This document shows positions 64 to 15,271 of a DNA stretch of 20,550 nt, in pieces. The stretch lies in assembly GCA_015485455.1 (NCBI GenBank), contig WFTN01000585.1, positions 1 through 20,550 of the forward strand, written 5' to 3'. Every line of letters starts with the position of its first letter. Position 1 is the first letter of the stretch. The notes below the pieces were generated by a model. The model ran no database searches and had not been told where the DNA came from. It worked only from the letters and a program-made list of their open reading frames with translations. The translations under genes and the position numbers were made by a program. Origin of the DNA: Planctomycetota bacterium (GTDB taxonomy: Bacteria; Planctomycetota; GCA-002687715; DRQF01).

Positions 64-702
64 ATGAGCAACACCAAACAAAACCAAACGACAGAGCCTG
101 GATCCCCCTGGGTGCCAGGGTGGGCCATCGGTCCTTTGTTGTTCGGACTGGCAGCGTGGTTCCTTTGGGGACCTAATCTGGACGATTTGCCCAACGCTGC
201 AACCCCTGAGTTCGATCGGGCTTTGTTATCCGCAGCACCCCGGCGCGTTCCCATGACAGATCCTCCCACCATTAAGTTAGCTGGGAACGATGCCACTTGC
301 ATGCACTGTCATACCAGCGTTGTGAGTAAGAGTGACAAGCCTCGCAAGCTTCTGCGGCACCAAAACGTGAAGCTTAATCATGGTCCCAATGTGAAATGCT
401 CCACATGTCACGCCTGGGAGAATCGTGACAAGTTGGCTGGCTTGGACGGCAGTGAAATGCCTTATGCCGATGTCGTGGATCAATGTGGCCAGTGTCATGT
501 GCGCAAGCGCAAAGACTGGGACAATGGTATCCATGGTCGCACCAATGGATTTTGGGATTCGACTGCGGGAGAGCGCAAGAAGCTGACCTGCACGGAATGC
601 CATGACCCTCACCACCCGCGGACGCCGGCGATGTCACCTGTGACACCTCTTCCAGGACCCAACACCTTGCGTATGCACCCGAACAAGGAATCACACAAAT
701 GA
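64..702 (+). CDS. Membrane-anchored tetraheme cytochrome c
   Basis: A 212-residue periplasmic electron carrier. Residues 16-36 form one hydrophobic segment without an obvious cleavage site, so it probably stays as an N-terminal anchor. Four CxxCH heme sites follow, at Cys79/82-His83, Cys112/115-His116, Cys141/144-His145 and Cys176/179-His180. Extra histidines (His99, His106, His157, His183) could be distal ligands. The heme spacing does not look like the NapC/NrfH family, so I do not name it NapC. It is first of eight co-directional genes and overlaps the ferredoxin gene by ATGA (699-702). By position it could play the role NrfB plays beside NrfCD, passing electrons to the octaheme enzyme or to NapAB. 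That role is inferred. The heme count and the anchor are read directly. Confidence 0.9.
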   Translation: MSNTKQNQTTEPGSPWVPGWAIGPLLFGLAAWFLWGPNLDDLPNAATPEFDRALLSAAPRRVPMTDPPTIKLAGNDATCMHCHTSVVSKSDKPRKLLRHQNVKLNHGPNVKCSTCHAWENRDKLAGLDGSEMPYADVVDQCGQCHVRKRKDWDNGIHGRTNGFWDSTAGERKKLTCTECHDPHHPRTPAMSPVTPLPGPNTLRMHPNKESHK

Positions 703-1655
703 GTTGCTCGAGCAATGGCAGCATGGATAGGCGGAGTTTCTTCCGGGCCGCCACAGGCGCAGCGGGGGGCATGGCCGCCTTGGTTGCAGCCCTATCACCT
801 CTGAAGTCTTTGGATACCTCTGACTTTACCGTCGAGAAATTCTTGCAACAGCATTACAAAGAGCTGGACGAGACCGAGATGGCCAAGGTCTTGGATCGCA
901 TCACCAAGGAAGTGGAAGAACGATACAAGGTTCGTCCGGACATCCGCGACATCAAACCTAAAGATGGTGTCGAGTTTGTTTATGCTTTGAACTTGGGAGC
1001 CTGCATTGGCTGTCGTAAGTGCGTCCATGCTTGCGTGGAAGAAAACAATCAAAGTCGCGATCCTGAAATTCAGTACATCCGCGTCTTGGAAATGCCTCGA
1101 GGCACGATTGACATCGAGAAGGGGGATCACACCTATGATCACCCCAAGGTGCCGAAAGACGACCACTTCTACATGCCCATCCAATGCCATCAGTGCGAGA
1201 ACCCTCCTTGCACCAAGGTATGCCCTGTGGAAGCGACCTGGACCGAGCCCGACGGCATCACCGTTGTTGATTATGATTGGTGCATCGGCTGTCGTTATTG
1301 CGAAGCTGCTTGCCCCTACTTTGCTCGACGATTCAACTTCACAGAACCTTCTATTCCGAAGGAAGAAGTGAATCCGACCATGTCCTATCTTTCCAATCGC
1401 CCTCGTCACAAAGGGGTGATGGAGAAGTGCCACTTCTGCTTGCATCGCACACGCAATGGTCAAAATCCTGCGTGCCTAGAAGTCTGCCCCGTTGGCGCTC
1501 GCAAGTTTGGTGACATCAAAGATCCGAATAGCGATGTGTCTCAGGTGCTGAAGCACAAACGAGTTTTTGTCTTGAAGGAAGAAGTCGGCACGATTCCTCG
1601 ATTCTTCTACTACTTCGATGAAGATTATCATCGTTCAGAAGAGAAAGGGGATTAA
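699..1655 (+). CDS. Tat-exported four-cluster 4Fe-4S ferredoxin, NrfC/PsrB type
   Basis: A 318-residue iron-sulfur subunit that should work on the periplasmic face with the NrfD-type protein encoded next. The N-terminus carries a twin-arginine signal (Asp10-Arg-Arg-Ser-Phe-Phe, then a hydrophobic stretch to about residue 34). Sixteen cysteines make four clusters: Cys102/105/108/112, Cys163/166/171/175, Cys195/198/201/205 and Cys244/247/259/263. This is the usual pattern of DmsB/NrfC/PsrB/HybA subunits. The start at 699 overlaps the cytochrome stop by ATGA. An internal Met at 723 would also keep the Tat signal. The next gene begins two bases after this stop, so the pair is almost certainly co-translated. 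It probably relays electrons from quinol oxidised in the membrane subunit to the multiheme proteins; electron direction is inferred from the neighbouring reductases. Confidence 0.95.
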   Translation: MSCSSNGSMDRRSFFRAATGAAGGMAALVAALSPLKSLDTSDFTVEKFLQQHYKELDETEMAKVLDRITKEVEERYKVRPDIRDIKPKDGVEFVYALNLGACIGCRKCVHACVEENNQSRDPEIQYIRVLEMPRGTIDIEKGDHTYDHPKVPKDDHFYMPIQCHQCENPPCTKVCPVEATWTEPDGITVVDYDWCIGCRYCEAACPYFARRFNFTEPSIPKEEVNPTMSYLSNRPRHKGVMEKCHFCLHRTRNGQNPACLEVCPVGARKFGDIKDPNSDVSQVLKHKRVFVLKEEVGTIPRFFYYFDEDYHRSEEKGD

Positions 1656-1657
1656 TC

Positions 1658-2935
1658 ATGGGTGCCTATCTTGTCTTTCTGAAACGTTGCTTTGCTCTGA
1701 GTTTCATCGGAGATTGGCGCTATCGCTTGTGGATGCTACTGCTGACCGTTGTGGCATTGTTGGGCCTGAACGCCTATTGCAAGCAGCTTGTTGATGGCAT
1801 GATCACAACGGGTATGACCGACCAGGTTTCTTGGGGCCTTTATATCGCCAACTTCACTTTCTTGGTGGGGATGGCCGCGGCCGCAGCCATGATGGTGATT
1901 CCGGTTTACATTTATAAGAAGACGGCCCTTCATGACCTCGTCATCTTTGGTGAGCTCTTGGCGGTGGCGGCCATTCTTATGTGCTTGGCCTTTGTGACCG
2001 TTGATTTGGGACGCCCTGATCGTTTCATGCATCTGTTCTTGCGCTTCAACTTTCCTATGTCGATGTTGACCTGGGACGTTGTGGTTCTGAACGTCTACTT
2101 GATGCTCAACCTTCACATCTGTGGCTACTTAGTTTGGTGTGCCTATAAGAAGAAGAAACCCGGCAAGAAGTTCTATATGCCATTTGTCTTCTTGGCGGTG
2201 TTCTGGGCCATCAGTATTCACACGGTGACGGCATTCCTTTACGTCGGTTTAGGAGGGCGTCCATTCTGGAACGCCGCCATCATTGCCCCTCGCTTCTTGG
2301 CTTCGGCTTTTGCCGCTGGCCCGGCATTTATCATCTTGACCTTGCAGATTATCCGCAAATTCACTGACTACAATGTGCCCGATGAGGCTTTGGCTTTGCT
2401 CCGTCGCATCGTCACCGTGGCCCTCACTATCAATGCCTTCTTGTTGGGGTGTGAGTTGTTCACCGAGTTCTACACGGGGGCAGCCCACAGTATTTCTGCC
2501 AAGTACCTGTTCTTCGGTCTTGATAACCACCACGGGCTTGGGCGCTACGAAGCCCTGGTGCCATGGATCTGGAGTGCCATCGGACTCAACACCATCGCAC
2601 TCTTGATTCTCTACACCCCGGCGGTAAAGAAGGTGGCTTGGTTGAATATCGCCTGTGTGGCCATGATTGTTGGCATCTGGATCGAAAAAGGCATGGGCCT
2701 GATTATTCCGGCATTCATCCCGTCACCACTTGGCGAGATTGTCGAGTATGCCCCAACTGCCAATGAGATCTTGGTGTGCTTGGGCATCTGGGCCTTCGGT
2801 CTTTTGGCCTACACCATTTTTGTACGCATTACGATTCCCGTCCTCACGGGGAAACTTACCTACGATCACAGCTATTCGTTGGAAACGGTCGGCACTGGGG
2901 AGTCCGACCAAAAGTCAAAGGAGACTGTCTCATGA
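1658..2935 (+). CDS. NrfD/PsrC-type polytopic membrane subunit
   Basis: A 425-residue integral membrane protein with many hydrophobic helices, by eye about eight to ten. They include segments near residues 20-40, 55-80, 88-110, 120-150, 170-195, 205-230, 245-265, 300-320, 328-350 and 365-390. Length, helix pattern and position directly after an NrfC-type ferredoxin fit the NrfD/PsrC quinone-binding family, which exchanges electrons between the quinone pool and a periplasmic iron-sulfur partner. It has no heme motif. It starts two bases after the ferredoxin stop, behind a GGGG-type ribosome binding site, and overlaps the octaheme gene by ATGA (2932-2935). With the ferredoxin it forms the likely electron entry point for the operon, since no NapC/NrfH-type quinol dehydrogenase gene is seen here. 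Proton translocation, known for some relatives, cannot be judged from sequence. Confidence 0.93.
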   Translation: MGAYLVFLKRCFALSFIGDWRYRLWMLLLTVVALLGLNAYCKQLVDGMITTGMTDQVSWGLYIANFTFLVGMAAAAAMMVIPVYIYKKTALHDLVIFGELLAVAAILMCLAFVTVDLGRPDRFMHLFLRFNFPMSMLTWDVVVLNVYLMLNLHICGYLVWCAYKKKKPGKKFYMPFVFLAVFWAISIHTVTAFLYVGLGGRPFWNAAIIAPRFLASAFAAGPAFIILTLQIIRKFTDYNVPDEALALLRRIVTVALTINAFLLGCELFTEFYTGAAHSISAKYLFFGLDNHHGLGRYEALVPWIWSAIGLNTIALLILYTPAVKKVAWLNIACVAMIVGIWIEKGMGLIIPAFIPSPLGEIVEYAPTANEILVCLGIWAFGLLAYTIFVRITIPVLTGKLTYDHSYSLETVGTGESDQKSKETVS

Positions 2936-4392
2936 GAAATCTAACCCAGTGGACAATGCGCGCCATTCTCTGCGTTTTTGTTGGACTCCTAACGGCCTCT
3001 ATGGCCCAAGCGCAGGCCTTTGGTCTGCCGGAAGTCTCGGCGAAATCGAAAGAATGTATCGATTGCCACAAAAAGCAAAACGTTGGTATCTACCAGCAAT
3101 GGGGCGAAAGCAAACACTATCGCGCCAATGTTGGTTGTTATGAGTGTCATGCAGCCGAGAAATCGGATGTGGATGCTGTCAATCACTACAACAACACGAT
3201 AGCGGTCATTGTCTCCCCCAAAGACTGTGCACGCTGTCACGAGAAGGAAGTCAAAGAGTTCTCCGGTTCGCATCATGCGAAGGCCGGTCGAATTCTGGGA
3301 TCTCTCGACAACGTCCTCGCGGAAGTTGTTGAAGGAAACCGCGACTTCGTCACACCTGGATTTCCCCATGGTAACTCTGCTGCTGCCGTCAATGGTTGTT
3401 GGCAATGCCATGGTTCTCAAATCAAAGTTCTGCCTGATGGCAAGCTCGATCCTGCAACCTATCCTAATAGCGGCATCGGCCGTTTGAATCCGGATGGAAC
3501 TGAAGGATCTTGCAACGCCTGTCACACGCGCCACACATTTTCTGCGGCGCAAGCAAGGCATCCAGATACATGCGGCAAATGTCACCTCGGACCCGATCAT
3601 CCTCAAAAGGAGATCTACGAGGAGTCGAAGCACGGTATCGCCTTCTTTTCGAATATTGACAAGATGAACCTGGATTCCAACAAGTGGATTGTTGGTGAAG
3701 ACTATTGGGCCGCACCTACCTGTGCGACATGCCATATGTCCCAAACCAAGAATCAACCGGTTACCCATGACATTGGCATGCGGATCAGTTGGAACAACAG
3801 ACCCAAGATTTCGGTTCGCCCCGAGGTTGCGGATGCCAAAATGGGACTTCCTGGTAAGGACGTCCCTTGGCAAGTCCGTCGCGCCAATATGAAGGATGTG
3901 TGCAGCAATTGCCACAACAAGAACTGGGTGGAGAACTTCTACATTCAGTACGACGGAATGATCGAACTCTATAACGAGAAGTATGCCAAACCAGGCATGG
4001 CTCTGTATGCTTTGGCTAAGAAGCTAAAGCCATATAAGGCGCCCTTCTCCCATGAGGTCGATTGGATTTGGTTTGAGCTTTGGCATCATGAAGGTCGTCG
4101 TGCTCGTCACGGTGCTTCCATGATGGCTCCTGATTACACCCACTGGCATGGAACCTACGATTTGGCCAAGACTTTCTACTCTCACTATATTCCCGCATTG
4201 CGGCACATGGTGAAAGATGGCAAAGAATCAAAGGACCCGGCCATGGTGAAAGCGGCGAAGGATCTTGATGCCAAGATCACTGAGACGATGAACACCAAGA
4301 ATCACCGGTGGGCAATCGACAAGCTCGATCCGAAAGAAAAAGCCAGAAGAGATGCAGCGCGGAAGGATTTCCTAAAGCGCTACGCCAAGTAA
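2932..4392 (+). CDS. Octaheme cytochrome c, hydroxylamine oxidoreductase (HAO) family
   Basis: A 486-residue secreted enzyme with signal peptide at about 1-28. Eight CxxCH sites have their first cysteines at 42, 69, 99, 156, 194, 214, 264 and 324. The stretch around hemes 5-7 (CNACHTRH, FSAA, CGKCH, then SKHG) matches the HAO family closely. In HAO the fourth heme is the catalytic one; here that is Cys156/Cys159/His160. Tyr402, in DYTHWHG, lies where bacterial HAO has its heme-crosslinking tyrosine when I align by eye. The family includes hydroxylamine/hydrazine oxidisers and reductive members (epsilon-Hao, IhOCC) that turn nitrite into ammonium. Placement between nrfCD-like genes and napDA favours nitrite or hydroxylamine reduction. 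The start at 2932 has AAGGAG at 2918-2923 and overlaps the previous stop by four bases; longer in-frame starts lack a signal peptide. Confidence 0.93.
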   Translation: MRNLTQWTMRAILCVFVGLLTASMAQAQAFGLPEVSAKSKECIDCHKKQNVGIYQQWGESKHYRANVGCYECHAAEKSDVDAVNHYNNTIAVIVSPKDCARCHEKEVKEFSGSHHAKAGRILGSLDNVLAEVVEGNRDFVTPGFPHGNSAAAVNGCWQCHGSQIKVLPDGKLDPATYPNSGIGRLNPDGTEGSCNACHTRHTFSAAQARHPDTCGKCHLGPDHPQKEIYEESKHGIAFFSNIDKMNLDSNKWIVGEDYWAAPTCATCHMSQTKNQPVTHDIGMRISWNNRPKISVRPEVADAKMGLPGKDVPWQVRRANMKDVCSNCHNKNWVENFYIQYDGMIELYNEKYAKPGMALYALAKKLKPYKAPFSHEVDWIWFELWHHEGRRARHGASMMAPDYTHWHGTYDLAKTFYSHYIPALRHMVKDGKESKDPAMVKAAKDLDAKITETMNTKNHRWAIDKLDPKEKARRDAARKDFLKRYAK

Positions 4393-4427
4393 TTTCAGCG
4401 ACGTAAGCAGAGAGAAAGAGCTGTGAA

Positions 4428-4880
4428 ATGAAGCGACACGAGCCGACAGAACAAGACGGAAAGATTGCCCTGCGCGATCATGTGGTCGAGAAAGCCATGG
4501 CGACAAAGAAACGTCATCCAGATCTGAATGGTGAGGCATCCTTGATGGCTTACTTGCAAGATGCGGAGTGTGTTCGATTCGCTACGGACCTCATCTTCGA
4601 CGCTTCCAACTTGCAAGACGGTGAGTTCGCCTGGGCACAACCGAAGGACACGGGGCCAAAAGATGGTTATCAGCTTTTTGTCCACCCGAAGTTTCGCTCA
4701 GACCCCGTTCTCCCTGCGATCGTTGCCTATCACGTGGCACGTATTAACTATGGCGAAATCGTCACGTCCGAGGAGGCAGAGCTTTACGGCTCCGCCCTCC
4801 TCGGACTTTCTGTTGATGAATACTACGCAAGCCTCTGCCGCGCAGCAGACAGCCTGGCCAGTTGTGGGGGAATGGGATGA
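4428..4880 (+). CDS. Conserved-position protein of unknown function in the nap/HAO operon
   Basis: A 150-residue soluble protein that I do not recognise. It has no signal peptide, membrane segment or heme motif, so it is probably cytoplasmic. The N-terminal 35 residues are highly charged; the rest alternates helix-like stretches (about 37-60 and 92-107) with an acidic C-terminal half (Glu-rich near 113-119). It lies 35 bases after the octaheme gene and overlaps napD by ATGA at 4877-4880. That ties its translation to a cytoplasmic chaperone for the Tat substrate NapA. A role in maturation or export of NapA or of the Tat-exported ferredoxin is a reasonable guess from placement, nothing more. 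The ribosome binding site is weak (AGAGAAAGAG about 10 bases upstream). Confidence 0.85.
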   Translation: MKRHEPTEQDGKIALRDHVVEKAMATKKRHPDLNGEASLMAYLQDAECVRFATDLIFDASNLQDGEFAWAQPKDTGPKDGYQLFVHPKFRSDPVLPAIVAYHVARINYGEIVTSEEAELYGSALLGLSVDEYYASLCRAADSLASCGGMG

Positions 4881-5155
4881 GACAAGACATTGAAACCCTT
4901 GCTGTGGTAGGCGCTTTCGCCCGCATCGAACCTGGGGCGTCCGTGAAAGTCAGACAACGACTAAACCAGATTCCCGGAGTTGAAACCTTCGATCTAGACG
5001 ACCAAGACCGCGTCGGAATCCTGATCGAAACCAAAGACGCCGCCGGGGCCGAAGAGATTCTCGAAGGGCCCATCAAGGCTACTCCTGGTGTTTGGGGAGC
5101 TTGGCCGGTGTCCGTCGAACTCGAAGAAGATCCAGACAGAATCGCCGAAGCCTGA
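4877..5155 (+). CDS. napD: NapD-like chaperone for periplasmic nitrate reductase
   Basis: A 92-residue cytoplasmic protein of normal NapD length with a ferredoxin-like beta-alpha-beta pattern. Its features are a first strand about 8-14, a helix with charged residues about 20-33, an LNQIPGVETF segment followed by a strand, then a second half with a helix (AGAEEILEGP) and a final PGVWGAWPVSVELEE. The paired IPGV and TPGVWGA turns are typical of NapD, which binds the Tat signal of NapA and holds back export until the molybdenum cofactor and iron-sulfur cluster are in place. It directly precedes napA and overlaps the unknown gene upstream by ATGA, so this start is preferred over an in-frame Met five codons earlier. 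The short family gives little to match on, but gene order supports the call strongly. Confidence 0.85.
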   Translation: MRQDIETLAVVGAFARIEPGASVKVRQRLNQIPGVETFDLDDQDRVGILIETKDAAGAEEILEGPIKATPGVWGAWPVSVELEEDPDRIAEA

Positions 5156-5170
5156 GGGCAACCGGCAACG

Positions 5171-5190
5171 CCTTGAGGTCATGCTCAAGG
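5171..5190 (+). promoter_or_regulatory. Perfect hairpin just before the napA ribosome binding site
   Basis: CCTTGAG (5171-5177) and CTCAAGG (5184-5190) are perfect inverted repeats around a six-base loop, in the 49-base spacer between napD and napA. The hairpin ends two bases before AAGGAG (5193-5198), which sits six bases before the napA ATG at 5205. It has no U-tract, so it is not an ordinary terminator. It could set napA translation relative to napD or act as an mRNA stability or processing site. An ATG inside the loop and right arm region (5181) is an alternative, less likely napA start. Confidence 0.45.
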
Positions 5191-5204
5191 AAAAGGAGCA
5201 GGTC

Positions 5205-7526
5205 ATGGAAAATACAAGAAGAGATTTCATGAAGGCGGCAGCGATGGCAGCCGTTGTTACAGCCACGAGTAGTCAGAAAGCGATGGGCAAGGTGTTCGAA
5301 GCTCCAAGCCCCCTCAAATGGCACAAATCTGTTTGCCGATTCTGCGGCACCGGATGTGGGGTCATGCTTGGGGTGCGGGACGATCGTTTGGTGGCCCTTC
5401 GAGGAGATGTGGAGCATCCCACCACGAAAGGATTGGTCTGCGCCAAATCCTTGTTCTTGCCTAAAATCGTCCATGCCAAGGACCGTCTTAAGACCCCCAT
5501 GATTCGCAAGAACGGCACACTCGTACCAGCTACCTGGGACGAGGCCATGACCTTGGTGGCCGAGAAGTTTGCCAGTGCCATCAAGAAGCACGGTCCAGAC
5601 TCTGTGGCCTACTATGGCTCGGGCCAAGCCATGAGCGAAGAAAGCTATCTCGCCAATCGTTTGTTCAAAGGTGGCATCGGCACCAACAATGTTGAAGGTA
5701 ATCCACGCCTGTGCATGGCCAGCGCCGTCGGAGGGTATGTTTCTACCTTCGGCAAAGATGAACCCATGGGAAGTTACGACGACATTGAACACGCCAAAGT
5801 GTTCTTCTTGGTCGGTTCTAACACGGCTGAATGCCATCCCGTCATTTACGACCAAATCTTGGCCCGCAAACAACAAAATCGTGATGTGTTGATCATTACC
5901 CTTGACCCGAGAAAGAGCCCCATCGACACCATCGCTGACGTCCATCTCGACCCAGTGCCGGGCTATGACTTAGCCGTTCTTCACGCTATGGCCTACTGCA
6001 TGATCCGAGACAAGAAGCATGACAAGGCTTTCATCGAAAAGAACGTCCAATTCAAGATCGTCAAAGACAAAAAGCCCACCAATGTGACGTTTGATGAGTA
6101 CTTTGAGTGGCTCAGCAAGAACTACACTCCGCGGCAGGCTGAGCTTCAGACCGGTGTCTCTCAAGCCAAGATCGAGGAAGCAGCGAAAATCTTCGCTGTG
6201 GGGCCAACAACTTCATTCTGGACTATGGGGCTCAACCAAAGAACCCGAGGTGTCTGGGTCAATAACCTGATGCACAATCTGCATCTCATCTCCGGGCAAA
6301 TCGGCAAACCTGGGGCAACACCATTTTCCCTTACAGGGCAACCCAATGCCTGTGGTGGCGTCCGCGACACCGGTTCTTTGTGCCACATTCTTCCTTATGG
6401 CCGCGCCATCAAGAAAGCCAAGCACAGAGAAGAGATGGAGAAGATCTGGGGTTGTAAACCCGGCACCATCAAGCCCAAACCAGGTCTGCATACCATCGCC
6501 ATGTTCCAGGCCTTGGCAAGAGATGAGGTGCAAGCCATGCTCATCTTGACCACCAACCCGGGGCATAGTCTTCCCAATGTCTCGGTTTACCGCGATGCTA
6601 TGGGGAAACCTCGGCCTAACAAACCGTTTATTTGCGTCATTGACGGCTACCCCACCAGGACAACAGAGCTAGCCGATGTGGTGCTCCCAGCGGCCATCTG
6701 GTCAGAAAAAACGGGTGTCTTCGGCATGTCCGAACGCCGCTATCAACTGCACCCTCAAGTGATTCCAGCCCCAGCAGGAACCGTTTCAGACTTCGATTTC
6801 CTTCTTGATTTCGCTGGTCGCTTGGAGGCCCATGGAGTCGTCCCTAAGGGCTATGTGTCCAGTAAGTTCAAGACCACAGACGACGTTTGGGAAGAGATGA
6901 TGTTGGCGTCGAAAGACACCGCATACGACTTCCGCGGTATCACAAGAGAGCGGTTGCGTAAGGAAAGGGGAGTGAGGTGGCCGGCCCCAACAGTGGGCCA
7001 TCCTGGAACCGCGAGACGGTTCGTCAAGGGAGAAGATCCATGTCTCGATGCCGGCCCATACGCCGACCTCACTTTGAAGCCGGGCGAGACGAAATTTTAC
7101 GCCGCCCCCAACCATCGAGCGACTGTATGGCTGAGGCCCGCCCTTGGTCCGGCCGAACCTGCTGACGCTGATTATCCTTTCGTTCTCACCACTGGTCGAG
7201 TCCTGGAGCATTGGCATACAGGCACTATGACCATGAAGGCTCGAGAATTGCGCCGTGCTTACCCCACATGCTTTGTTGAGGTGCATCCAGACGACGCTAA
7301 GAAACTGGGAATTCGAGATGGCAAGAAGATCAAGATCACCTCGCGGAGAGGTGAGGCTACGGTCAAAGTGCGGATCACCCAAGCGCCTCAGCCCGGCATG
7401 ATCTTTGTCCCGATGCACTGGGAAGACGTTCCGAGTCTTATCAACTTAGTCACCATAGACGCCTTCGATCCTGGTTCGAAACAACCAGAGTTTAAGATGT
7501 GCGCTGTGAAGTTGGAGAAGGCATAG
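5205..7526 (+). CDS. napA: Periplasmic nitrate reductase catalytic subunit NapA
   Basis: A 773-residue molybdopterin oxidoreductase that reduces nitrate to nitrite in the periplasm. It has a Tat signal (Arg5-Arg6-Asp-Phe-Met-Lys, hydrophobic to about residue 22). An N-terminal 4Fe-4S site follows at Cys44, Cys47, Cys51 and Cys79. Cys170 in NPRLCMASAV is the expected Mo ligand, and the FGKDEPMGSYDDIE context that follows is characteristic of NapA. The C-terminal third (from about 655) is the dinucleotide-binding beta-barrel domain. It is somewhat shorter than well-known NapA proteins of about 830 residues. The start at 5205 is chosen for the AAGGAG at 5193-5198 and the neat Tat signal; an ATG at 5181 would add eight residues. 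The preceding napD and the NapB-like lipoprotein 60 bases downstream support the assignment. Confidence 0.96.
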   Translation: MENTRRDFMKAAAMAAVVTATSSQKAMGKVFEAPSPLKWHKSVCRFCGTGCGVMLGVRDDRLVALRGDVEHPTTKGLVCAKSLFLPKIVHAKDRLKTPMIRKNGTLVPATWDEAMTLVAEKFASAIKKHGPDSVAYYGSGQAMSEESYLANRLFKGGIGTNNVEGNPRLCMASAVGGYVSTFGKDEPMGSYDDIEHAKVFFLVGSNTAECHPVIYDQILARKQQNRDVLIITLDPRKSPIDTIADVHLDPVPGYDLAVLHAMAYCMIRDKKHDKAFIEKNVQFKIVKDKKPTNVTFDEYFEWLSKNYTPRQAELQTGVSQAKIEEAAKIFAVGPTTSFWTMGLNQRTRGVWVNNLMHNLHLISGQIGKPGATPFSLTGQPNACGGVRDTGSLCHILPYGRAIKKAKHREEMEKIWGCKPGTIKPKPGLHTIAMFQALARDEVQAMLILTTNPGHSLPNVSVYRDAMGKPRPNKPFICVIDGYPTRTTELADVVLPAAIWSEKTGVFGMSERRYQLHPQVIPAPAGTVSDFDFLLDFAGRLEAHGVVPKGYVSSKFKTTDDVWEEMMLASKDTAYDFRGITRERLRKERGVRWPAPTVGHPGTARRFVKGEDPCLDAGPYADLTLKPGETKFYAAPNHRATVWLRPALGPAEPADADYPFVLTTGRVLEHWHTGTMTMKARELRRAYPTCFVEVHPDDAKKLGIRDGKKIKITSRRGEATVKVRITQAPQPGMIFVPMHWEDVPSLINLVTIDAFDPGSKQPEFKMCAVKLEKA

Positions 7527-7586
7527 CCCGTGTTGTTCAGCTAAATTCGACCAACACCCGCAAACTGGATCCGAAGGAGAAACATC

Positions 7587-8318
7587 ATGTATAGATGGAT
7601 TTGTTCGAGCCTGTTGTGTTCGGCGCTGCTCCTCGTTGTACTGAGTTGTACAAGTCATGAGAACGGCGACGAGCCCCAGGCCATAGGAGAAGAAGCCACA
7701 CCAGTTGTTTTGGCCTCACACCCGCCTGAGGAAACGACGAAAGGAGAAACTGAATTGGCCGAGTCCTTGCCAGCATCCCAAGAGGAAGTCAAGGCAAAGG
7801 TCCCGATGAAGCCCAAGCCCGTGGAAGCACCGGCTAAAGTTGTTGCTGTTAGGCAATCAGAAACGCCATTTGAGGACGACGCCTTTCCGCCGACCATCTC
7901 GGATAGCGCTTGGCACGCGTCCGCATGGCAACAAGACGATTGTCTGCGTTGCCACGAAACGGGCGTTGGCAAAGCACCGGAGATTGTTCATCGGGGCATG
8001 TCACCAATCTTGAAGACGGCGAAATGCCGCACGTGCCATGTTGAGATCCCCAACGAGTTGCCTCATTGGGGTGCCAAGGAAAAAGCGAAGAGTAAGATCG
8101 CAGAAGATCGAGGCTTCGCGAGCTTTGCATTTCCTCCGTCAATACCGGCTTCCCAGTCCCACAGGAAGGCTTGGCTGAAGGATGATTGTCGTATGTGTCA
8201 TGACAATGGCATCAGTGGGGCTCCAGCAATTGTCCACAAGAGAATTCCGGCTATTGCTCTGGAGAGTAAGTGCCGTACATGTCATGTCCAGGTGAGAGTT
8301 ATTGACGCCACGCGTTGA
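7587..8318 (+). CDS. Tetraheme lipoprotein built from two tandem NapB-like diheme modules
   Basis: A 243-residue protein with a lipoprotein signal (hydrophobic 7-20, lipobox LVVLS-Cys21). A Pro/Glu/Lys-rich linker runs to about 95, followed by two copies of a 56-residue module at 99-154 and 181-236. The copies are offset by exactly 82 residues and share about 28 of 56 positions. Each opens with AFPP, carries two CxxCH sites (Cys119/122 and Cys147/150; Cys201/204 and Cys229/232) and keeps two further histidines (His110 and His135; His192 and His217), enough for bis-His ligation. The CLRCH...GxAPxIVH...CRTCHV layout resembles NapB, the diheme partner that feeds NapA. NapB normally has one module and is not a lipoprotein, so this looks like a duplicated, membrane-tethered version. 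AAGGAG at 7574-7579 sets the start. It is the last gene of the operon. Confidence 0.9.
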   Translation: MYRWICSSLLCSALLLVVLSCTSHENGDEPQAIGEEATPVVLASHPPEETTKGETELAESLPASQEEVKAKVPMKPKPVEAPAKVVAVRQSETPFEDDAFPPTISDSAWHASAWQQDDCLRCHETGVGKAPEIVHRGMSPILKTAKCRTCHVEIPNELPHWGAKEKAKSKIAEDRGFASFAFPPSIPASQSHRKAWLKDDCRMCHDNGISGAPAIVHKRIPAIALESKCRTCHVQVRVIDATR

Positions 8319-8404: not shown

Positions 8405-9232
8405 CTAAGGGATCCTTGCGCCTTCGATGAGGCCCAAGAGTGCCTGTGGTTGCAGGTTTGCCTGGGCCAGAATCGACAAGGATGCTTGGAGCATGATTTG
8501 GTTTCTGGTGAACTTTGCGCTTTCTTTGGCGTAATCCAAGTCGGTGATTCTTGATCGAGCTGCTTCCAGATTCTCCGCTTGAATCCCAACAAAATTAAGG
8601 CGTGATTCAAGGCTACTTTGGGCTGCACCAAAAGTGCCACGAATGGATGCCACCGAATTGATGGCAAGGTCGATGGCATCGATGGCACTGGCTGGGTCAG
8701 CCGAGATACTCAAACTTGAGAGGCCAAGGGTGGAAGCATTGGTATTTGAGAGTCCGATCGAAAAAACATCACTCAGGCTCGTTCCGGAACCTATTTGCAA
8801 GTCGATGGAAGAAAGAGATCCGTCCAGCAAGTTGAGTCCGTTGAAGGACGTGGTGCTGGCAATCTGATCGAGGCCGCTGCGCAGCGATGAGAATTCGCTT
8901 TGTAGAGAGGCTTGATCACTTGAGGACAAGGTGCCGTTGGATGCTTGAATAGCCAACTCCCGGAGACGAATGAGAATACTTGAGCTTTCGTCCAAAGAAC
9001 CTTCGGCAATTTGGGTGGCGCTGATGCCGTCTTGAATGTTACGGGAAGCCTGGGCTAAGCTCCTGACTTGCGCTCTCAAGCGATCGGCTATGGCAAACCC
9101 AGCGGCATCGTCGCTCCTGAGCTTTTGACCAGAGGAAAGTCGCCGGAGGCTCTTGCCCAATCGAAACTGCGCTTTCGCCAGATTGCGCTGGGCGTTGATT
9201 GAAAACAAGTTCGTATTGATGCCAAGAACCAC
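8405..9232 (-). CDS. fliC: Flagellin, short form
   Basis: A 275-residue flagellar filament protein. The N-terminal flagellin domain (about 1-138) shows the family hallmarks: INTNLFSINAQRNL, LRRLSSGQKLRSDDAAGFAIADRL, and DGISATQIAEGSLDESSSIL with FNGLNLLDG. The C-terminal domain (about 190-275) ends with the helical segment through ILAQANLQPQALLGLIEG. There is almost no variable middle domain, so the filament would be made of D0/D1 only. It should leave the cell by the flagellar export apparatus, consistent with no signal peptide. The start is GTG with GAGGA five to six bases upstream on the minus strand; no in-frame ATG fits better. No other flagellar gene is in the window. The gene converges with the nitrate operon and follows a DinB-like gene 138 bases away on the same strand. 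Confidence 0.95.
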   Translation of the reverse strand: MVLGINTNLFSINAQRNLAKAQFRLGKSLRRLSSGQKLRSDDAAGFAIADRLRAQVRSLAQASRNIQDGISATQIAEGSLDESSSILIRLRELAIQASNGTLSSSDQASLQSEFSSLRSGLDQIASTTSFNGLNLLDGSLSSIDLQIGSGTSLSDVFSIGLSNTNASTLGLSSLSISADPASAIDAIDLAINSVASIRGTFGAAQSSLESRLNFVGIQAENLEAARSRITDLDYAKESAKFTRNQIMLQASLSILAQANLQPQALLGLIEGARIP

Positions 9233-9268
9233 AGGATTCCTCGAGTCGAAAAGAAGTGTCTCATGTTC

Positions 9269-9276
9269 TTATCGAC
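9269..9276 (-). promoter_or_regulatory. Possible sigma-28-like -10 box for flagellin
   Basis: On the minus strand, GTCGATAA lies 36 bases before the GTG start and matches seven of eight bases of the flagellar -10 consensus GCCGATAA. The expected TAAA at the -35 position is not present at the usual spacing, so the call rests on the -10 box and on the gene being flagellin. Confidence 0.35.
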
Positions 9277-9370
9277 CTGATACCCACTCACCCCAAGAAA
9301 GTGAAAGTAAAGGGTAATCATGCAGCCTCATCCATAGGAGAAATCCTGCGGCCCTGGCTCTTTCTCTTAC

Positions 9371-9853
9371 TTAAGCGATCGCACCGTCGAGCCCGATCAA
9401 TCGCCTGAGAGTTCCCACTTGGCCTACGTGATAACCTTCGTGCCAAGCCAATCCCAGGAGGATCCCCCCGATTGTGGCGCCGAAAATCTCGTGAGGGCCA
9501 TCGGGATTCGCTTTCTTGAGGTCCGTATCCGTTTGTTCTTCCAGCCACGCCACAAGAGTTTCGGTGTGCGCGTGAAGAAGTGCGTGTATATCTTCCATGG
9601 CTGTTGGATTCGTATTGGCTGCGGGACTGCTGCCCCGGCCGTAGGCATCGGCTCCCTCTTCTGTCCAAGGTAGCTCAAGTCCGGCGACTTTGGAAACTGC
9701 GCGTCGTGTGCTGAGAATGTGGCCCAAGACCCAATTGATTGTGCTTCCGGCCCCGGTGTCTTTTAGGCTTGCTTCTTCGCTGATGCCTTCAACGTTCTTG
9801 GCTAAGGCAAAGGAATTCAAAGTGAAGATCTTGGCGATATCTGAACCGTTCAT
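9371..9853 (-). CDS. DinB-like four-helix-bundle metal-site protein
   Basis: A 160-residue cytoplasmic protein of the DinB/YfiT-like superfamily. The three metal-binding histidines typical of the fold are visible: His45 in the NWVLGHIL helix, and His138 and His142 in WHEGYHVGQ near the C-terminus. Members include thiol-dependent transferases and many proteins of unknown role; the sequence does not show which substrate this one uses. The start is ATG at 9853 with a purine-rich GGAAAGAGA before it. It stands alone between the flagellin gene and the HEAT-repeat gene, with 138 and 232 bases of non-coding sequence on either side, so it may have its own promoter, although none is clear. Confidence 0.88.
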   Translation of the reverse strand: MNGSDIAKIFTLNSFALAKNVEGISEEASLKDTGAGSTINWVLGHILSTRRAVSKVAGLELPWTEEGADAYGRGSSPAANTNPTAMEDIHALLHAHTETLVAWLEEQTDTDLKKANPDGPHEIFGATIGGILLGLAWHEGYHVGQVGTLRRLIGLDGAIA

Positions 9854-10085: not shown

Positions 10086-11402
10086 TCAGTAGCTGGCCGA
10101 GGGCAAGAGCATGTTGATATCGTTGTTTGGGTTTTTGGTCTTGAACTTGATGTCTTCGCCCATTTGCTTCAACGACCAGGCGCAAGCGTTTCGAGCCATG
10201 TTCTTTTCCGATGACAATCGACTTCTCACACGCTTCACTAGATTCGATCGGGTGTGGCTCCCTATGGCGAAATAAGCCGCAGCTCTCACTTGCGCGTTTG
10301 TTGATTTCAAACACTTGAGCAATGCTTTGCTGTAGGTGTCATCCCAAGTGCCGTCCGCAATGCGATATAGAATGCTGATCTTGTCAAGGTCGCCTCCACT
10401 TCGGAGCACTTTTGATAGGGCCTTTGAGACTTCCGTATTTCCACTTCCGCAGGTCATGACTGTTTGTATGAGGATAGATCGAAGTTGTTTCTTCTTCTCT
10501 TTCTTGAGCACCTGAAGAATAGGGCTTACGCTTTCCACCAAACCGATGTCGCGAATGGCTTGGGCCAAGTTGGTGCGAATCTGAAATCCTCTTTCTTTGC
10601 GAAGAAGCCGATGCAGTTGGGGCAAGTACTTCACTTGACCTTCTTGGCCCATGGCTCGGATGGCTTCTAACCGTTTCGATTGGTCGACATCCTTGCCTGT
10701 CTGTTTGATTAAGAAGTCTATGACAGCGGGGTGTTCCTTCACTGCGACTTTTGACAAAGATGCCCGACGTTTCATCATGTTGTTGCTATCGGCGTCCGCG
10801 AGTAACGCTCGGATTTCTTCGAGCTCCGATCGTGATTCTGTGGCTAGTTCTTTCGGGAGGGCATGGGACTTGTCGAAATAGTGAAGGGCCTTGTGCATCT
10901 TTTTCTTCAATTCGTTTGCAGACAAGAGCCAGATGTGGCGCAGTAGAATCGTTTCGCCATTGGGGTGAACGAAAAGGAATTGAGGAGCTGATACCTGCCC
11001 CGATTCCATGTATTCGCATCGGGCTGCGTATTCGAGAGTCTTGAGTTGCTTGCGGCTCAAACGATGGGAGATGGATTGAACATAGGCCTCACTGGTTTTT
11101 GTGTCGCCTTTGTTGTCACCAGAAACGTATTCCGCGTAGGCCAAGAGGCAGACGAAGTTGCGGCTCAAAGCGATGAGATCCTTGTCCAAGAAATGATCGC
11201 CGCAGATGGATTCGTTGGCTGATTCACCTCGCAGGATGAAGGCGACCATGATGGGGCGGTTTTCCTTCTTGGCTTGCTTGAGGGCTTTTTCGAAATGAGG
11301 TTGCCAGTCAATGCCCTTATAGGAATCTTCCGCCCCAGCTTGTGCTTGGGCCATGGAGAACAGGCAGAAACTCGCAACACAACTCAAGATAAGATTACGC
11401 AT
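10086..11402 (-). CDS. Secreted protein with thioredoxin-like N-terminus and HEAT repeats
   Basis: A 438-residue protein with signal peptide at about 1-21 (cleavage near AQAQA). Residues 30-175 resemble a thioredoxin-like fold: a WxxxxxxALKQAKKENRPIM strand-helix entry and a predicted cis-Pro segment SAPQFLFVHPNGE at 138-150. The active-site CxxC is missing; only Cys67 lies in that loop, so it is probably not a disulfide oxidoreductase. From about 215 to the end, helical pairs of HEAT type repeat, for example around AIRAMGQ, LAQAIRDIGL and AAAYFAIGS, ending in ACAWSLKQMG. It probably binds proteins in the periplasm or on the surface. The start at 11402 is chosen over an upstream in-frame Met because it gives a proper signal peptide and has GCGAGGGG shortly before it. 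It lies 167 bases downstream of the large protease gene and may share its transcript. Confidence 0.82.
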   Translation of the reverse strand: MRNLILSCVASFCLFSMAQAQAGAEDSYKGIDWQPHFEKALKQAKKENRPIMVAFILRGESANESICGDHFLDKDLIALSRNFVCLLAYAEYVSGDNKGDTKTSEAYVQSISHRLSRKQLKTLEYAARCEYMESGQVSAPQFLFVHPNGETILLRHIWLLSANELKKKMHKALHYFDKSHALPKELATESRSELEEIRALLADADSNNMMKRRASLSKVAVKEHPAVIDFLIKQTGKDVDQSKRLEAIRAMGQEGQVKYLPQLHRLLRKERGFQIRTNLAQAIRDIGLVESVSPILQVLKKEKKKQLRSILIQTVMTCGSGNTEVSKALSKVLRSGGDLDKISILYRIADGTWDDTYSKALLKCLKSTNAQVRAAAYFAIGSHTRSNLVKRVRSRLSSEKNMARNACAWSLKQMGEDIKFKTKNPNNDINMLLPSASY

Positions 11403-11569
11403 GTGCACCCCTCGCCTTCCGCTTCTTCCTAAGAAAGCTGAATCATCCTTGGCCTTCACAGGGATAGACGCGAGTCTTCGAGGATGTGCCACATCTATTT
11501 TGGTTTATTTTTCTGGGACCAAGAATTCTGTGTCGATCAGGTTATGGCTTAGTCTCTTCGAGATCAAAT

Positions 11570-14500
11570 CTACTTCGGTGACGTTGTCCAGTTAAGAATC
11601 CGGATTGCTTTTTGGTTGTGGCCAAACACGGTTGCGGTGATGGATTTGACTTGGGTGCCGTAGAGAAGTGCACGGAAACCATCGCCATCGAGGGAGAAAC
11701 GTTCAGTTTCCTTCCAGTTTGCCATGCGGGTTTTGCCATTTTTGAGATATTTAATCTTGTACTCAACGAAGGCAAACTGATCGAGATGACTGATAGGGCC
11801 TTGGAGGCGAATGATCCATTCGCTGATGGCGCGATTCCCCCGTTGCTTGTTGCTCCAAAGTTGTTCAACGGTGAGCCTCGTTTTCTTCATCTCTTTGGAT
11901 TTGAACTTGAATACTTGAGGGGGGAGGCTGGAAGTACTTTTGTCGGCGTATTCGAGACTTCCTTTGACTGCTCTCGGCGTGCTACGGAGTTCGGTTTTTT
12001 CGAAGTTCGGGAATCCGTCGCTCGAAATACCGAAACTACCGAAATGAAGAGAGGTTGGGGTTTGCCCTTGATGAGCTGCCCCTGAGATGGAGTAGCTAGC
12101 CAACCAAAGGGGCTGATTTCTGAAGTGCCCCCAGAAGCGGTCCCGCCCGTGGAGCTGCAAGGAATGGCTGCTAAGAGATGGGAGGAATGCAATGATGGTT
12201 TTTTCTTTTCCCCTTGTGAATTGGATGGTGGCTTTGACCTGGACAGGGCCTTGGTCTTTCACGGAGCAGCCCCATTTGAATCCACCGAAGAGATAGCCAT
12301 GCCCCTTCATGATGATGGGCTTTTCCTTCTTCGAGGCGATCTCGAAGCGGACAGATTTGATGGAGCTAATAAGTTTCGTCGGCCCGGTGATTCCTATGAC
12401 ATTTCTTTGCCTTTGGATTCCTAAACCATGAAAGCGTTTGGCTTGGCATGATCCAAGGACAGTTCTTGTTTCAAAACTGCCGTCTTTGAAGACCAGGGTG
12501 ACGGTGAAGGCTTGAGGGCTGGCATAGGTGGCAGAGGCGCGAAAATCCTTGTTGAATCGAACGTCAGATTTCGTTGGGGTGGCGCTAATTCGAATCAAGG
12601 CATGACTTAATTTTGCCATTTCGGAATCGGGGCCTTCGACTTGAAGTCTTAGCCGAAATAGGGCATTGCCACCCCACTCTCCAGTGAATCGTTCAATGGC
12701 CCGAATGTTTATCACCGACTGTGGGCTGTTATTCCAAGAGGTCGAAGATTGTGGCACCCTCGTGATTAGCGTTTGGCAACCACCATCCACGTAGTGCAGC
12801 CGTGCTTGAATCGGGCCAGGTTCTTTGGCGACCCCTTGAAAGCGCCATCGAGGTGAATTCGTTCCGTCCTTCAAACTCAAGGTCGTTTGCCATTGATGGG
12901 GGAAAGGGATGTAGACTCTTGGGTCCCCGGGATTTTTTCGGGGAAGAATCAGCGATGGGGCTTGGTAGACATATTGGACAGTATGCGCCGATCCCCACCA
13001 AATGGGACCACCGATCTTGGTCCACCAAGTGATGTCCTTATGACCATCGACGTATTTCGTGACTGACGCAAGACGCTTATCAAGAAAGGCCACATCGACT
13101 GCTGGCCGTGGTGATGTGAAAGTTGCTTTCTTCTCGAAAGAGACGGTCTTCAGTTTTGCCTTGGCAGACACGGTGATCGTTTGACTTAGGCCCTTGAATT
13201 CGACGGCAAAGTCACCGTGTTTGTCTTTCTTGCCCTCGATGAGGTGTTTTCTGCCCTTCTCGTCCTTGCAATGGAAAGTCACCTTTTCGATCTTATTTGT
13301 TGTGAGCCAGTCGCCACTGAGTCGGACCTGATGATTCCAGGTTGGGACTTTGTTCTTGCTCCGACCGGCATAGGCGGATGTTCCGTAGAGTTCCACTCTG
13401 TGGGGACCGTCGTAGGCCGTCTTCTTGTCAGGAAGCTCCACCCACTTCTCAAGCACCATGGTTTCACGCATGTTGCGTTTCCAATGAATGGTTGCCCGAG
13501 CCCGAAAATCCTTGGAGGCGACACCAGTCATTTGAAAACCGTTGAGGTAGTTTTGGCCGCTGCGCACAATGAATTGGCGATGGCCTTGGCTTCCGTCAAG
13601 CTGCCATACGACCCGGTCGACTTCGAAATTGGCCAAACCCACAGGGATTCGAAGGTGAAGTCTGTACGCCGATCGGCTTCCATCGCCAAATTTGTGGAGT
13701 TTTGACTTGAGAATGACAAGATCGTTCGCCGGGTCTGAGAATGTCTCTGAATCGTATCTTCTGAGGGTCTCTGAGCCATCGAAGAAGATGAAACGTACGG
13801 AGATGGGTTCGGGAGATTCAACAGTGAACTCGCGCCTTGCGAGCTTCGATTTCTGCCCCATGGGATTGATTTCTTGATGCTCGTCACCGATGTCGATGAT
13901 GATGCGGTCGACGCTTCGGATATCCGCAACCGATCCATGAAAGTGAATGATACGAATCCAATGGGGGCGTTTGCTGTTCCCTTGGCTTGTATCCATGAGA
14001 CCCCAGTAGCGGTCTTCCACAGAGATGGACACACTTCTTTGTTGACCTATGGGCGGGTGAAACGACACGGGCTGCCTGAGGGTGCGTTTGCTTCCGTCTT
14101 GAAATACGAGGTCGGCAACAAGCTGGTGCTGCCCACCAAGAACGGCTGACCATATTTGAAAATGTCTCGACGAATCATCCGTTCGCAATTTGCTCGGCAG
14201 TTTGTTGCCCAAGCTTGGGGCATGCCATACGACGTCTCTTACGCTTTGTATTGCTGCTTTGGAGCCTTCTAATTCGGCGTAGTAGCGATACAGCGTTTTC
14301 TTTTCCTCTAAGTGATAACCGTTGGCTTCGCTTCGAACCCGAATCTTGAGCTGCTTTGGTGCTTGGTCAGTCTGGGTGCCCAAAGTCCGCTTGTTCCTTT
14401 CGTCTTCAAATGCAACGGCTAACATGACAAAAGCTTCGCTGTTCTTTTGTGGCTCGAATTTTTCGAATGCGTCATAGCCAACCCAGCAATAGCCACCTTT

Positions 14501-15271
14501 ACCCCAACGACTGCCCCAGGAGTTTCTCAGGAGGAAGCCACCGATGTCATCGTCGAAGCCAACGATCGCCATAGCATGGAGAGCGTGGCGTTGATTGGGC
14601 TTGCGGCGCTTCATGCCCCAGGCGTGCATTTCTTGAGTGTAGACCTGGAATCGGCCTGAGAAGAATCCGGGGGTCAATCGTACTCCCAGTGCGACAGGCA
14701 TATTCTGCTGCAAGACCATCTTGATTTGCTCCTTGTTCTTGAGCAAGTAGGTGGCTCGGTTCTTGAAGTGGGCTGCCTCCTTGAATGCGGAAGGGGAAGG
14801 TTGAGTCTTGAAGTCCTTTGCGATGTAAGGATTGGTTTTCAGAGTCGCCGCTCCGGACTTCTCCATAAGGCGACCAAGGGCGATGAGATTGGATCCTTTG
14901 TCTTTTCCCGAGTTCGTTTGCGAGTAGAGAAAGCTAGGCGAGAAAATAGTTTGAGGTTGATCAGCCTTCCAATCTTGGTCAATTGTCTCCAAGAAGCTCT
15001 TGATGGCTGCGGCTGTCCAGGCAGAGCAATCGTTCATTGATTGCTCGCCTACTGGTGGAAAGTGCCGCCGCAGATCAATGCGCTTAACCACAGCCCCTCG
15101 CGGCGCTGGCTTGTGGGTTTTGCCGTTCTTGATGTCCTCAGCTTTCGGCACCCGTCCGCCGGTTTGCGCATGAGAATCTGAGGGAGCAAGGAGAACCATC
15201 ATGGCCATCGTCAAGAAAACTCGAATTAGGTTGGGAGAACACCATGGTGCCAAGGTGGAAGAAGTGGTCAT
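11570..15271 (-). CDS. Large secreted papain-family (C1A) protease with tandem pYEATS-like repeats
   Basis: A 1233-residue exported protein with signal peptide at about 1-36 (cleavage after SHA). The catalytic domain, about 64-290, has papain residues: oxyanion Gln77, nucleophile Cys82 (EQSMNDCSAW), His232 in LHAMAIVGFDDD and Asn250 in NSWGSRWGKGGY. There is no long propeptide between signal and enzyme. Residues 303-1233 comprise about nine units of 85-120 residues. Most hold an I-x-x-V-x-x-V/I-x-[WFY] strand (near 345, 455, 552, 663, 768, 890, 974, 1078, 1168) and a closing hairpin of the type V-x-A-x-L-x-F-x-DGS. That layout resembles the prokaryotic pYEATS beta-sandwich, but the family match is by eye. 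The repeats may bind the substrate or cell surface. It lies upstream of, and in the same direction as, the HEAT-repeat gene. Confidence 0.9.
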   Translation of the reverse strand: MTTSSTLAPWCSPNLIRVFLTMAMMVLLAPSDSHAQTGGRVPKAEDIKNGKTHKPAPRGAVVKRIDLRRHFPPVGEQSMNDCSAWTAAAIKSFLETIDQDWKADQPQTIFSPSFLYSQTNSGKDKGSNLIALGRLMEKSGAATLKTNPYIAKDFKTQPSPSAFKEAAHFKNRATYLLKNKEQIKMVLQQNMPVALGVRLTPGFFSGRFQVYTQEMHAWGMKRRKPNQRHALHAMAIVGFDDDIGGFLLRNSWGSRWGKGGYCWVGYDAFEKFEPQKNSEAFVMLAVAFEDERNKRTLGTQTDQAPKQLKIRVRSEANGYHLEEKKTLYRYYAELEGSKAAIQSVRDVVWHAPSLGNKLPSKLRTDDSSRHFQIWSAVLGGQHQLVADLVFQDGSKRTLRQPVSFHPPIGQQRSVSISVEDRYWGLMDTSQGNSKRPHWIRIIHFHGSVADIRSVDRIIIDIGDEHQEINPMGQKSKLARREFTVESPEPISVRFIFFDGSETLRRYDSETFSDPANDLVILKSKLHKFGDGSRSAYRLHLRIPVGLANFEVDRVVWQLDGSQGHRQFIVRSGQNYLNGFQMTGVASKDFRARATIHWKRNMRETMVLEKWVELPDKKTAYDGPHRVELYGTSAYAGRSKNKVPTWNHQVRLSGDWLTTNKIEKVTFHCKDEKGRKHLIEGKKDKHGDFAVEFKGLSQTITVSAKAKLKTVSFEKKATFTSPRPAVDVAFLDKRLASVTKYVDGHKDITWWTKIGGPIWWGSAHTVQYVYQAPSLILPRKNPGDPRVYIPFPHQWQTTLSLKDGTNSPRWRFQGVAKEPGPIQARLHYVDGGCQTLITRVPQSSTSWNNSPQSVINIRAIERFTGEWGGNALFRLRLQVEGPDSEMAKLSHALIRISATPTKSDVRFNKDFRASATYASPQAFTVTLVFKDGSFETRTVLGSCQAKRFHGLGIQRQRNVIGITGPTKLISSIKSVRFEIASKKEKPIIMKGHGYLFGGFKWGCSVKDQGPVQVKATIQFTRGKEKTIIAFLPSLSSHSLQLHGRDRFWGHFRNQPLWLASYSISGAAHQGQTPTSLHFGSFGISSDGFPNFEKTELRSTPRAVKGSLEYADKSTSSLPPQVFKFKSKEMKKTRLTVEQLWSNKQRGNRAISEWIIRLQGPISHLDQFAFVEYKIKYLKNGKTRMANWKETERFSLDGDGFRALLYGTQVKSITATVFGHNQKAIRILNWTTSPK

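Follow-up and report, generated by a model that had tools for sequence, protein, structure and literature searches.

Introduction

In Escherichia coli, periplasmic nitrite reduction by the NrfABCD system is supplied from the membrane by a multiheme cytochrome together with an iron-sulfur (FeS) protein and NrfD. The subject of the present study is an operon of eight genes in a 20,550-bp stretch of DNA from a member of the Planctomycetota (GenBank assembly GCA_015485455.1, contig WFTN01000585.1, here C585), which joins a periplasmic nitrate reductase (Nap) to an octaheme cytochrome c of the HAO superfamily and to a membrane module with an NrfD-family protein. The stretch, referred to as the window, is the entire contig; the genome assembly comprises 4.13 Mb in 614 contigs and is 77% complete. 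Judged from its sequence, the operon on balance appears to encode a quinol-driven, periplasmic two-step reduction of nitrogen oxides, in which nitrite would most likely be converted straight to ammonium.

A close counterpart has been described for the deep-sea bacteria Thermosulfurimonas dismutans and Dissulfuribacter thermophilus, which are reported to grow with nitrate and to form ammonium while lacking NrfA (PMC5276818). Their cluster of 11 genes combines napMADGH and two unknown genes with a locus of four genes, which encode an HAO-like multiheme cytochrome (TDIS_0606 in T. dismutans), an NrfD-family protein, a 4Fe-4S protein and a membrane cytochrome, for which the authors propose a role in nitrite reduction (PMC5276818). 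The window resembles this cluster in placing Nap beside an HAO-like cytochrome, an NrfD-family protein, a 4Fe-4S protein and a cytochrome, with no NrfA. It differs in that T. dismutans and D. thermophilus belong to other phyla and have NapM, NapG and NapH as well as two unknown genes between the halves, whereas the window has napDA followed by a tetraheme cytochrome of diheme repeats, no NapGH, and one unnamed gene; the octahemes are compared here by description only. An earlier interpretation based on the DNA alone (the sequence-only reading) knew of no example of this gene order together with NrfCD, but a close counterpart is in print for the two thermophiles (PMC5276818). Because such a similar cluster has already been published, we regard the operon as a variant of that arrangement, now with new comparative evidence, and not as a new system.

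The nap-epsilonHao cluster of Caldithrix abyssi is alike in that the octaheme adjoins a nap cluster without NapB and NapC; NrfAH is reported as absent, and a nitrite reductase lacking the tyrosine is proposed (PMC5317091). In contrast to the FeS-NrfD pair of the window, electrons are proposed there to come from a Rieske/cytochrome b pair or from ACIII (PMC5317091). The nap-hao-hcp cluster of Deferribacter autotrophicus likewise combines Nap and an octaheme, with no NrfA and with ammonium formed in culture, but it contains hcp and a decaheme cytochrome, and an NrfD/FeS pair is not among the genes described for it (PMC6896113). The operon also departs from NrfABCD of E. coli, as NrfA was not found in the source genome and the FeS and NrfD-family proteins of the window miss the NrfC and NrfD models (see below).

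The genus of the pure culture 'Po. corsica', which is of interest in this context, we take to be Poriferisphaera. This culture encodes an octaheme of the kind discussed for Phycisphaerae, where formation of nitric oxide (NO) and of ammonium are both left possible, and Phycisphaerae genomes with a nitrate reductase and no known nitrite reductase are described in the same report (PMC11266412). Another NrfD-containing cluster has been described for Oslofjord tunnel genomes (OFTM; PMC10732223), and several OFTM are among the loci surveyed here. The open-licence literature searched yielded no account of this operon in planctomycetes, of how widely it occurs, of the several NapA that accompany it, or of the unnamed gene.

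A Conserved Four-Gene Core Around the Octaheme

The eight genes lie on one strand between positions 64 and 8318 (Table 1), with intergenic gaps of 2, 35, 49 and 60 bases and ATGA overlaps at 699, 2932 and 4877. Direct reading thus confirmed what had been claimed for the layout, namely eight co-directional genes, gaps of at most 60 bases and three ATGA overlaps. In a genome of the same genus (locus L145) the first seven genes occur in identical order up to the contig end, with 91% identity for the octaheme and 85% for NapA, and a genome of the same family (L146) keeps all eight in order. Genes resembling napG and napH come next in L146, the latter reaching 159.8 bits with the napH model, whose cut-off is 213. 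Since the order recurs in both genomes, the arrangement is not due to chance. No napGH was found in the window.

We surveyed the best 80 loci among the matches listed, whose octahemes are 62–80% identical to that of the window; 55 of them carry planctomycete titles. Of the 66 loci that reach 3.4 kb or more upstream, 52 have an FeS gene ahead of the octaheme, and 51 have tetraheme, FeS and NrfD genes all ahead of it. The conserved unit is therefore cytochrome–FeS–NrfD–octaheme. The conserved synteny expected for HAO-family, NrfCD and NapDA genes holds for this core (51/66), but NapA lies within the available flanks of only 20 of the 80 loci. Hydrazine dehydrogenase passes its curated cut-off in 26 of 392 genomes of the phylum, which, like the planctomycete titles, fits the assignment of the source genome to the Planctomycetota.

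Several features accompany individual loci. Rrf2-like regulator genes lie near the octaheme in six of the 80 (L022, L033, L044, L049, L070, and L078), directly before the first tetraheme gene in L022 and L033; the four that were scanned are all Rrf2. An assignment as NsrR was unsupported in the two proteins scanned for it (50.4 and 27.6 bits vs. 182), and we refer to them as Rrf2 family only. A cluster of Alginate_exp-type porins, of which one member was scanned, is present in 14 loci. In the octaheme tree, the distance is zero between the octahemes of L037 and contig C214 of genome G002, and between those of L038 and contig C60 of genome G066. A protein at 98% identity, P0002, is encoded on a 60.7-kb contig of the window's family.

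Nap Joins the Core Repeatedly

NapA of the window's type (at least 60% identity) occurs within the examined flanks of 10 of the 80 loci, and a distant NapA-like protein (31–43%) in another 10. In half of these 20 loci the NapA match begins less than 1 kb downstream of the octaheme on the same strand. Nine of the ten distant proteins were scanned; all nine pass NF010055 (904 bits) and three pass TIGR01706 (930.55).

A tree of paired NapA only, comprising 19 of the 20 (that of L009 is a fragment and was left out), contains a group of the window's type (12 rows, support 99), a group of planctomycetes joined by a verrucomicrobial bin and a 'deltaproteobacterial' one (10 rows, support 100), and a group of two Gammaproteobacteria with a myxococcal bin (support 100), the taxa of which are possibly blurred by binning errors. 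As the paired NapA fall in at least three groups, the link between octaheme and NapA recurs. On the octaheme tree, a quick tree with open forks and 55 rows of known state, the presence of any NapA changes at least 15 times and that of window-type NapA at least five times. The core module stands alone, with Nap as a minority, movable partner that joins it repeatedly. Such repeated joining argues more strongly than a single operon would for an octaheme that acts on what Nap produces.

The Octaheme Is Related to IhOCC

Eight CXXCH motifs and a PF13447 match of 87.6 bits (cut-off 21.9) place the octaheme in the HAO superfamily, as its initial label as an HAO-type octaheme implied. Its nearest solved relative is PDB entry 4qo5 (27% identity over the aligned fold), titled a hypothetical multiheme protein, which we take, in organism as well as in function, to be IhOCC of the archaeon Ignicoccus hospitalis. 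This entry was also the sole sensible one among 37 matches in a PDB search with the C-terminal part. HDH/HOX and the HAOr-type rows (Kuenenia HAOr, PDB 6h5l) belong to the same superfamily and lie on the opposite side of a split with a support of 100. The kinship to reductive relatives that the sequence-only reading had assumed thus holds towards IhOCC and away from HDH/HOX.

The cross-link tyrosine site of the oxidases most likely maps to residues 403–405 (THW) of the octaheme, indirectly, through the range ends of structure alignments and the tyrosine numbers. His404 is invariant (93/93 octaheme rows), and a nearly invariant Tyr402 is two residues away from the mapped site. Structural modeling suggests that His404 most likely sits where the cross-link tyrosine of HAO, HOX and HDH maps. 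The model, built from 93 rows, has a pLDDT of 78.6 and replaced one from 29 rows (pLDDT 58.6); its Foldseek superposition is bad over the whole chain (root-mean-square deviation ~19) and well tested only for about residues 205–462. When the C-terminal part was aligned to HDH/HOX by profile, the result proved unreliable, and the first MAFFT alignment gave no usable tyrosine column.

Additional HAO-superfamily proteins were encountered in the genomes studied. The source genome (G000) encodes a second, short octaheme of 411 residues on contig C5 (L003, 5168–6403) that is ~32–34% identical and is followed by a 277-residue frame resembling a membrane protein. In the same-genus genome G001 (L148, contig C298, 7119–8537), a diverged octaheme (50%) has an 11-heme cytochrome and two tetraheme frames as neighbors, which makes up a different multiheme cluster. 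The anammox-type genome G095 (L155, 9329–10990) has an anammox HAO-family paralog with ~47–57% identity, which has the motif PDYTHWHG in common with the octaheme family.

Electron Supply, the Nap Half and the Unnamed Gene

By eye, the first tetraheme cytochrome has a hydrophobic stretch near its N-terminus, which a threshold scan did not call. The FeS protein contains three complete 4Fe-4S-type cysteine patterns plus further cysteines and starts with a sequence like that for twin-arginine translocation (Tat; RRSFF). Its best NCBIfam model is DsrO with 170.9 bits, short of the cut-off of 200, and NrfC reaches 108.8 (cut-off 377.6). The membrane protein, with about 10–11 hydrophobic segments, matches Pfam NrfD (140.9 bits); among NCBIfam models it exceeds the cut-off for DsrP (410.7 vs. 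350) and stays below that for NrfD (TIGR03148, 27.1 vs. 347.6). By these scores, the pair is DsrOP-like and outside the NrfC and NrfD models. Of the name NrfCD given to it earlier, the NrfD part has the Pfam family match, but neither part has the support of its NCBIfam model, and the idea that the octaheme takes over an NrfBCD supply is not supported in that form. Family membership suggests a membrane quinol dehydrogenase of the DsrP/NrfD class with a tetraheme partner.

NapA was identified correctly from the start: it has a Tat signal (TRRDFM), the 4Fe-4S motif CRFCGTGC and the molybdenum-ligand cysteine at residue 170 (in PRLCMAS), and its best PDB match is 2jio (777 bits, residues 36–773 of 773). 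It falls below both NCBIfam equivalog cut-offs for NapA (646.9 vs. 904 and 613.3 vs. 930.55), as does the window-type NapA of L005 (661.4). Because the solved Desulfovibrio NapA is nearest, we read this as a sub-type; the protein is, by sequence comparison, a Desulfovibrio-type NapA, a claim that stops short of the equivalog. The preceding gene keeps its label as NapD partly by its position before napA, as its Pfam NapD match (22.6 bits) is below the cut-off of 28. For the last tetraheme the designation NapB-like had to be given up: no NapB match was listed in a Pfam search at E up to 10, and the CXXCH motifs at 119/147 and 201/229, together with an internal FPPxI repeat, indicate a two-fold repeat of a diheme unit. 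It is the probable electron donor to NapA.

The unnamed protein after the octaheme (150 residues) has no visible signal or membrane segment, and no Pfam family was listed for it at E up to 10. It had 12 database matches, one of them probably the window's own protein, and those with names are hypothetical. Of the 75 loci that extend 600 bases or more past the octaheme, 43 carry this gene no more than 450 bases after it. In an alignment of 48 rows (window and 47 loci), N107 is found in all 48, Y108 in 47, C137 and D141 in 46 each, P87 in 44, H86 in 43, and G109 in 41. A role as a maturation or assembly factor is possible.

The Fate of Nitrite

In the proposed pathway, NapA would reduce nitrate to nitrite, and the octaheme, as an enzyme of the IhOCC/reductive-Hao type, would then reduce nitrite, its presumed substrate, most likely to ammonium directly. 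The NrfD/DsrP-type membrane protein and its FeS partner may transfer electrons from quinol to the first tetraheme and from there to the octaheme, while the last tetraheme of diheme repeats probably donates to NapA. A shared supply of NapA and octaheme is possible in the window, because napGH is absent after the last cytochrome and present in L146. A broader version of this scheme, which we consider rather unlikely, would have one DsrOP-type quinol dehydrogenase with the flanking tetrahemes feed both NapA and the IhOCC-type octaheme, so that a short operon without NapC or NapGH sufficed for the whole eight-electron respiration of nitrate to ammonium; the core, with its own unnamed accessory protein, would then be the main NrfA-independent route of ammonification or nitrite reduction in Planctomycetota and neighboring phyla.

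Searches of the source genome and its two close relatives G001 and G002 (77, 83, and 89% complete) found no NrfA, NirS, siroheme nitrite reductase or hybrid cluster protein (HCP), and NirK models matched with 30 bits or less (cut-off 296). A separate nrfA, nirK or nirS, which would have spoken against the sequence-only reading, is thus not seen above family cut-offs in these incomplete genomes, and Nap and an HAO-type octaheme share one cluster in a genome without detected NrfA, as in published nap-hao clusters. The notion of a self-contained nitrate-to-ammonium chain therefore gains from the kinship to IhOCC, the lack of another nitrite reductase above cut-off and the recurrence of NapA; it is tempered by Nap being a minority partner, by an ammonium product that is deduced, and by qNor, which keeps NO in play.

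For a wider comparison we used 99 relatives, with seven close octaheme carriers (orthologs) or 25 in a broad set that adds relatives at 52–59% identity; the non-carriers include the anammox genomes G058, G078 and G095 and genomes with weaker octaheme matches. PF02335 matched in 42 genomes at E 0.001 and in 33 over its cut-off, and the 19 with at least 290 bits were taken as NrfA, leaving out fragmentary matches in G014 (95.6 bits) and G045 (83.5 bits) and all matches below 31 bits. For qNor, 15 of 17 genomes were counted, with the fragmentary matches in G057 and G077 left out.

A number of observations weigh against direct ammonium formation. The source genome, besides being only 77% complete, encodes two qNor-type NorB proteins (PF22085 and COX1, ~795 residues; L180 on C397 and L183 on C516). 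qNor is commoner with the octaheme (9/25 vs. 6/74, Fisher p 0.002), and stays so when two of the three family members are left out (7/23 vs. 6/74, p 0.012), both without correction for kinship; this would suit NO, whether as the product or as a by-product. Replacement of NrfA by the octaheme was dropped as a statistical pattern (0/7 vs. 19/92, p 0.34; broad set 2/25, p 0.14), and two of the seven close carriers, G029 and G066, have partial matches of 24–25 bits at or over the Pfam NrfA cut-off, which we read as other multiheme cytochromes. Deferribacter desulfuricans is tabulated with nap and hao, yet with nitrite as the endpoint (PMC6896113). The direct profile alignment is weak at the mapped tyrosine site, which leaves that mapping indirect, and 22 of the 34 loci that contain the core and extend 8 kb to either side have no NapA in view.

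With two qNor in the source genome and qNor enriched among carriers, reduction of nitrite to NO has to be considered. The octaheme would then act as an NO-forming nitrite reductase like Kuenenia HAOr, described as a nitrite-to-NO enzyme (PMC12758564), and NO formed from Nap-derived nitrite would be reduced to N2O by the two qNor-type enzymes, making up the front half of denitrification without NirS or NirK, neither of which was above cut-off; for Phycisphaerae, it has been proposed that the octaheme may replace NirK/NirS (PMC11266412). We consider this unlikely, since the octaheme lies outside the HAOr-type rows and nearer to IhOCC, four of the seven octaheme-ortholog genomes are without qNor (cNor was not searched), and ammonium is what organisms with a comparable locus form in culture (PMC5276818). 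More doubtful still is a core devoted to detoxification or general NrfD-type electron transfer, with NO, hydroxylamine or a sulfur oxyanion as substrate and Nap placed alongside in certain lineages because regulation or electron supply is shared. The many core loci without nearby NapA, the Rrf2-family regulators and the DsrP-type membrane subunit would fit such a role, and sulfur compounds are named as an alternative for the T. dismutans locus itself (PMC5276818), but the repeated pairing with several NapA groups is hard to explain unless nitrite is the substrate.

Direct ammonium formation can further be set against a route through free hydroxylamine (a reversed hydroxylamine:ubiquinone redox module, HURM), in which the octaheme would reduce nitrite to hydroxylamine and cytoplasmic HCP would convert this to ammonium. 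This is the published model for organisms with nap and Hao, such as Nautilia (PMC2628731) and Deferribacter (PMC6896113), and HCP is present in three of the seven octaheme genomes searched. It is weakened by the lack of detected HCP in G000, G001 and G002, all of them carriers of the operon, and appears very improbable here. Superfamily membership and several database entries named hydroxylamine oxidoreductase or dehydrogenase would suggest, finally, an oxidative enzyme that dehydrogenates hydroxylamine or hydrazine and delivers the electrons to the quinone pool. We rejected this identity as scarcely credible, given the absence of kinship to HDH/HOX in the tree, a hydrazine_HDH score of 58 bits against a cut-off of 900, the invariant His404 at the likely tyrosine site, and the pairing with Nap.

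The Planctomycetota are abundant, and the nature of the product bears on how their nitrogen metabolism is surveyed. Should ammonium be the product of the octaheme module, its carriers would be ammonifiers overlooked by standard nrfA surveys; should it be NO, they would be denitrifiers overlooked by standard nirS/nirK surveys. For either product, the cytochrome–FeS–NrfD–octaheme set together with the unnamed gene provides a gene marker, and the protein is directly testable.

Other respiratory genes were noted in the source genome. Contig C516 (L183) has a separate frame with weak matches to copper nitrite reductase models (25 bits or less). A cbb3-like oxidase adjoins FixO (CcoN model 204 bits, under cut-off). 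On C219 (L186, 686–2880), a COX1-family protein of 476 residues (55 bits) follows a cytochrome c of 254 residues that has two c domains; this fourth COX1-family protein is possibly a cNor or an oxidase.

Operon Borders and Neighboring Genes

Table 1. Genes of the operon, with positions in the window, strand and basis of assignment.
Feature	Position	Strand	Basis
Tetraheme cytochrome c (first gene)	64..702	+	4 CXXCH; Cytochrom_c3_2 above cut-off
Tat-type periplasmic multi-[4Fe-4S] protein, DsrO/NrfC-like	699..1655	+	RRSFF, Cys patterns, NCBIfam scores
NrfD/DsrP-type integral membrane quinol dehydrogenase subunit (predicted)	1658..2935	+	Pfam NrfD, NCBIfam DsrP
Secreted octaheme cytochrome c, HAO superfamily, probable nitrite reductase	2932..4392	+	8 CXXCH, PF13447
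Unnamed conserved protein	4428..4880	+	Position after octaheme, 48-row alignment
NapD-like chaperone	4877..5155	+	Position before napA, sub-cut-off Pfam NapD
NapA periplasmic nitrate reductase, nearest Desulfovibrio enzyme	5205..7526	+	PDB match 2jio, motifs
Tetraheme cytochrome of two similar diheme units (last gene)	7587..8318	+	CXXCH spacing, internal repeat

On the 5' side of the operon the contig ends, so that the window is cut at base 1. As the frame beyond the first tetraheme is divergent in the same-family locus L146, the operon probably starts at the first tetraheme gene. Counts of promoter-like sites (3 vs. 5.7 ± 2.6 in shuffled sequences) and terminator-like sites (14 vs. 9.8 ± 2.8) were uninformative. 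Downstream, the operon meets a convergent flagellin gene. The neighbors on the minus strand (8405–9853 and 10086–19729) are ordinary and encode flagellin, a DinB-family protein, HEAT-repeat and FG-GAP repeat proteins and an M1-type peptidase. The protein of 1,233 residues encoded at 11570–15271 carries, close to its N-terminus, a peptidase domain of the papain type (C1), followed by a long remainder without an assigned family.

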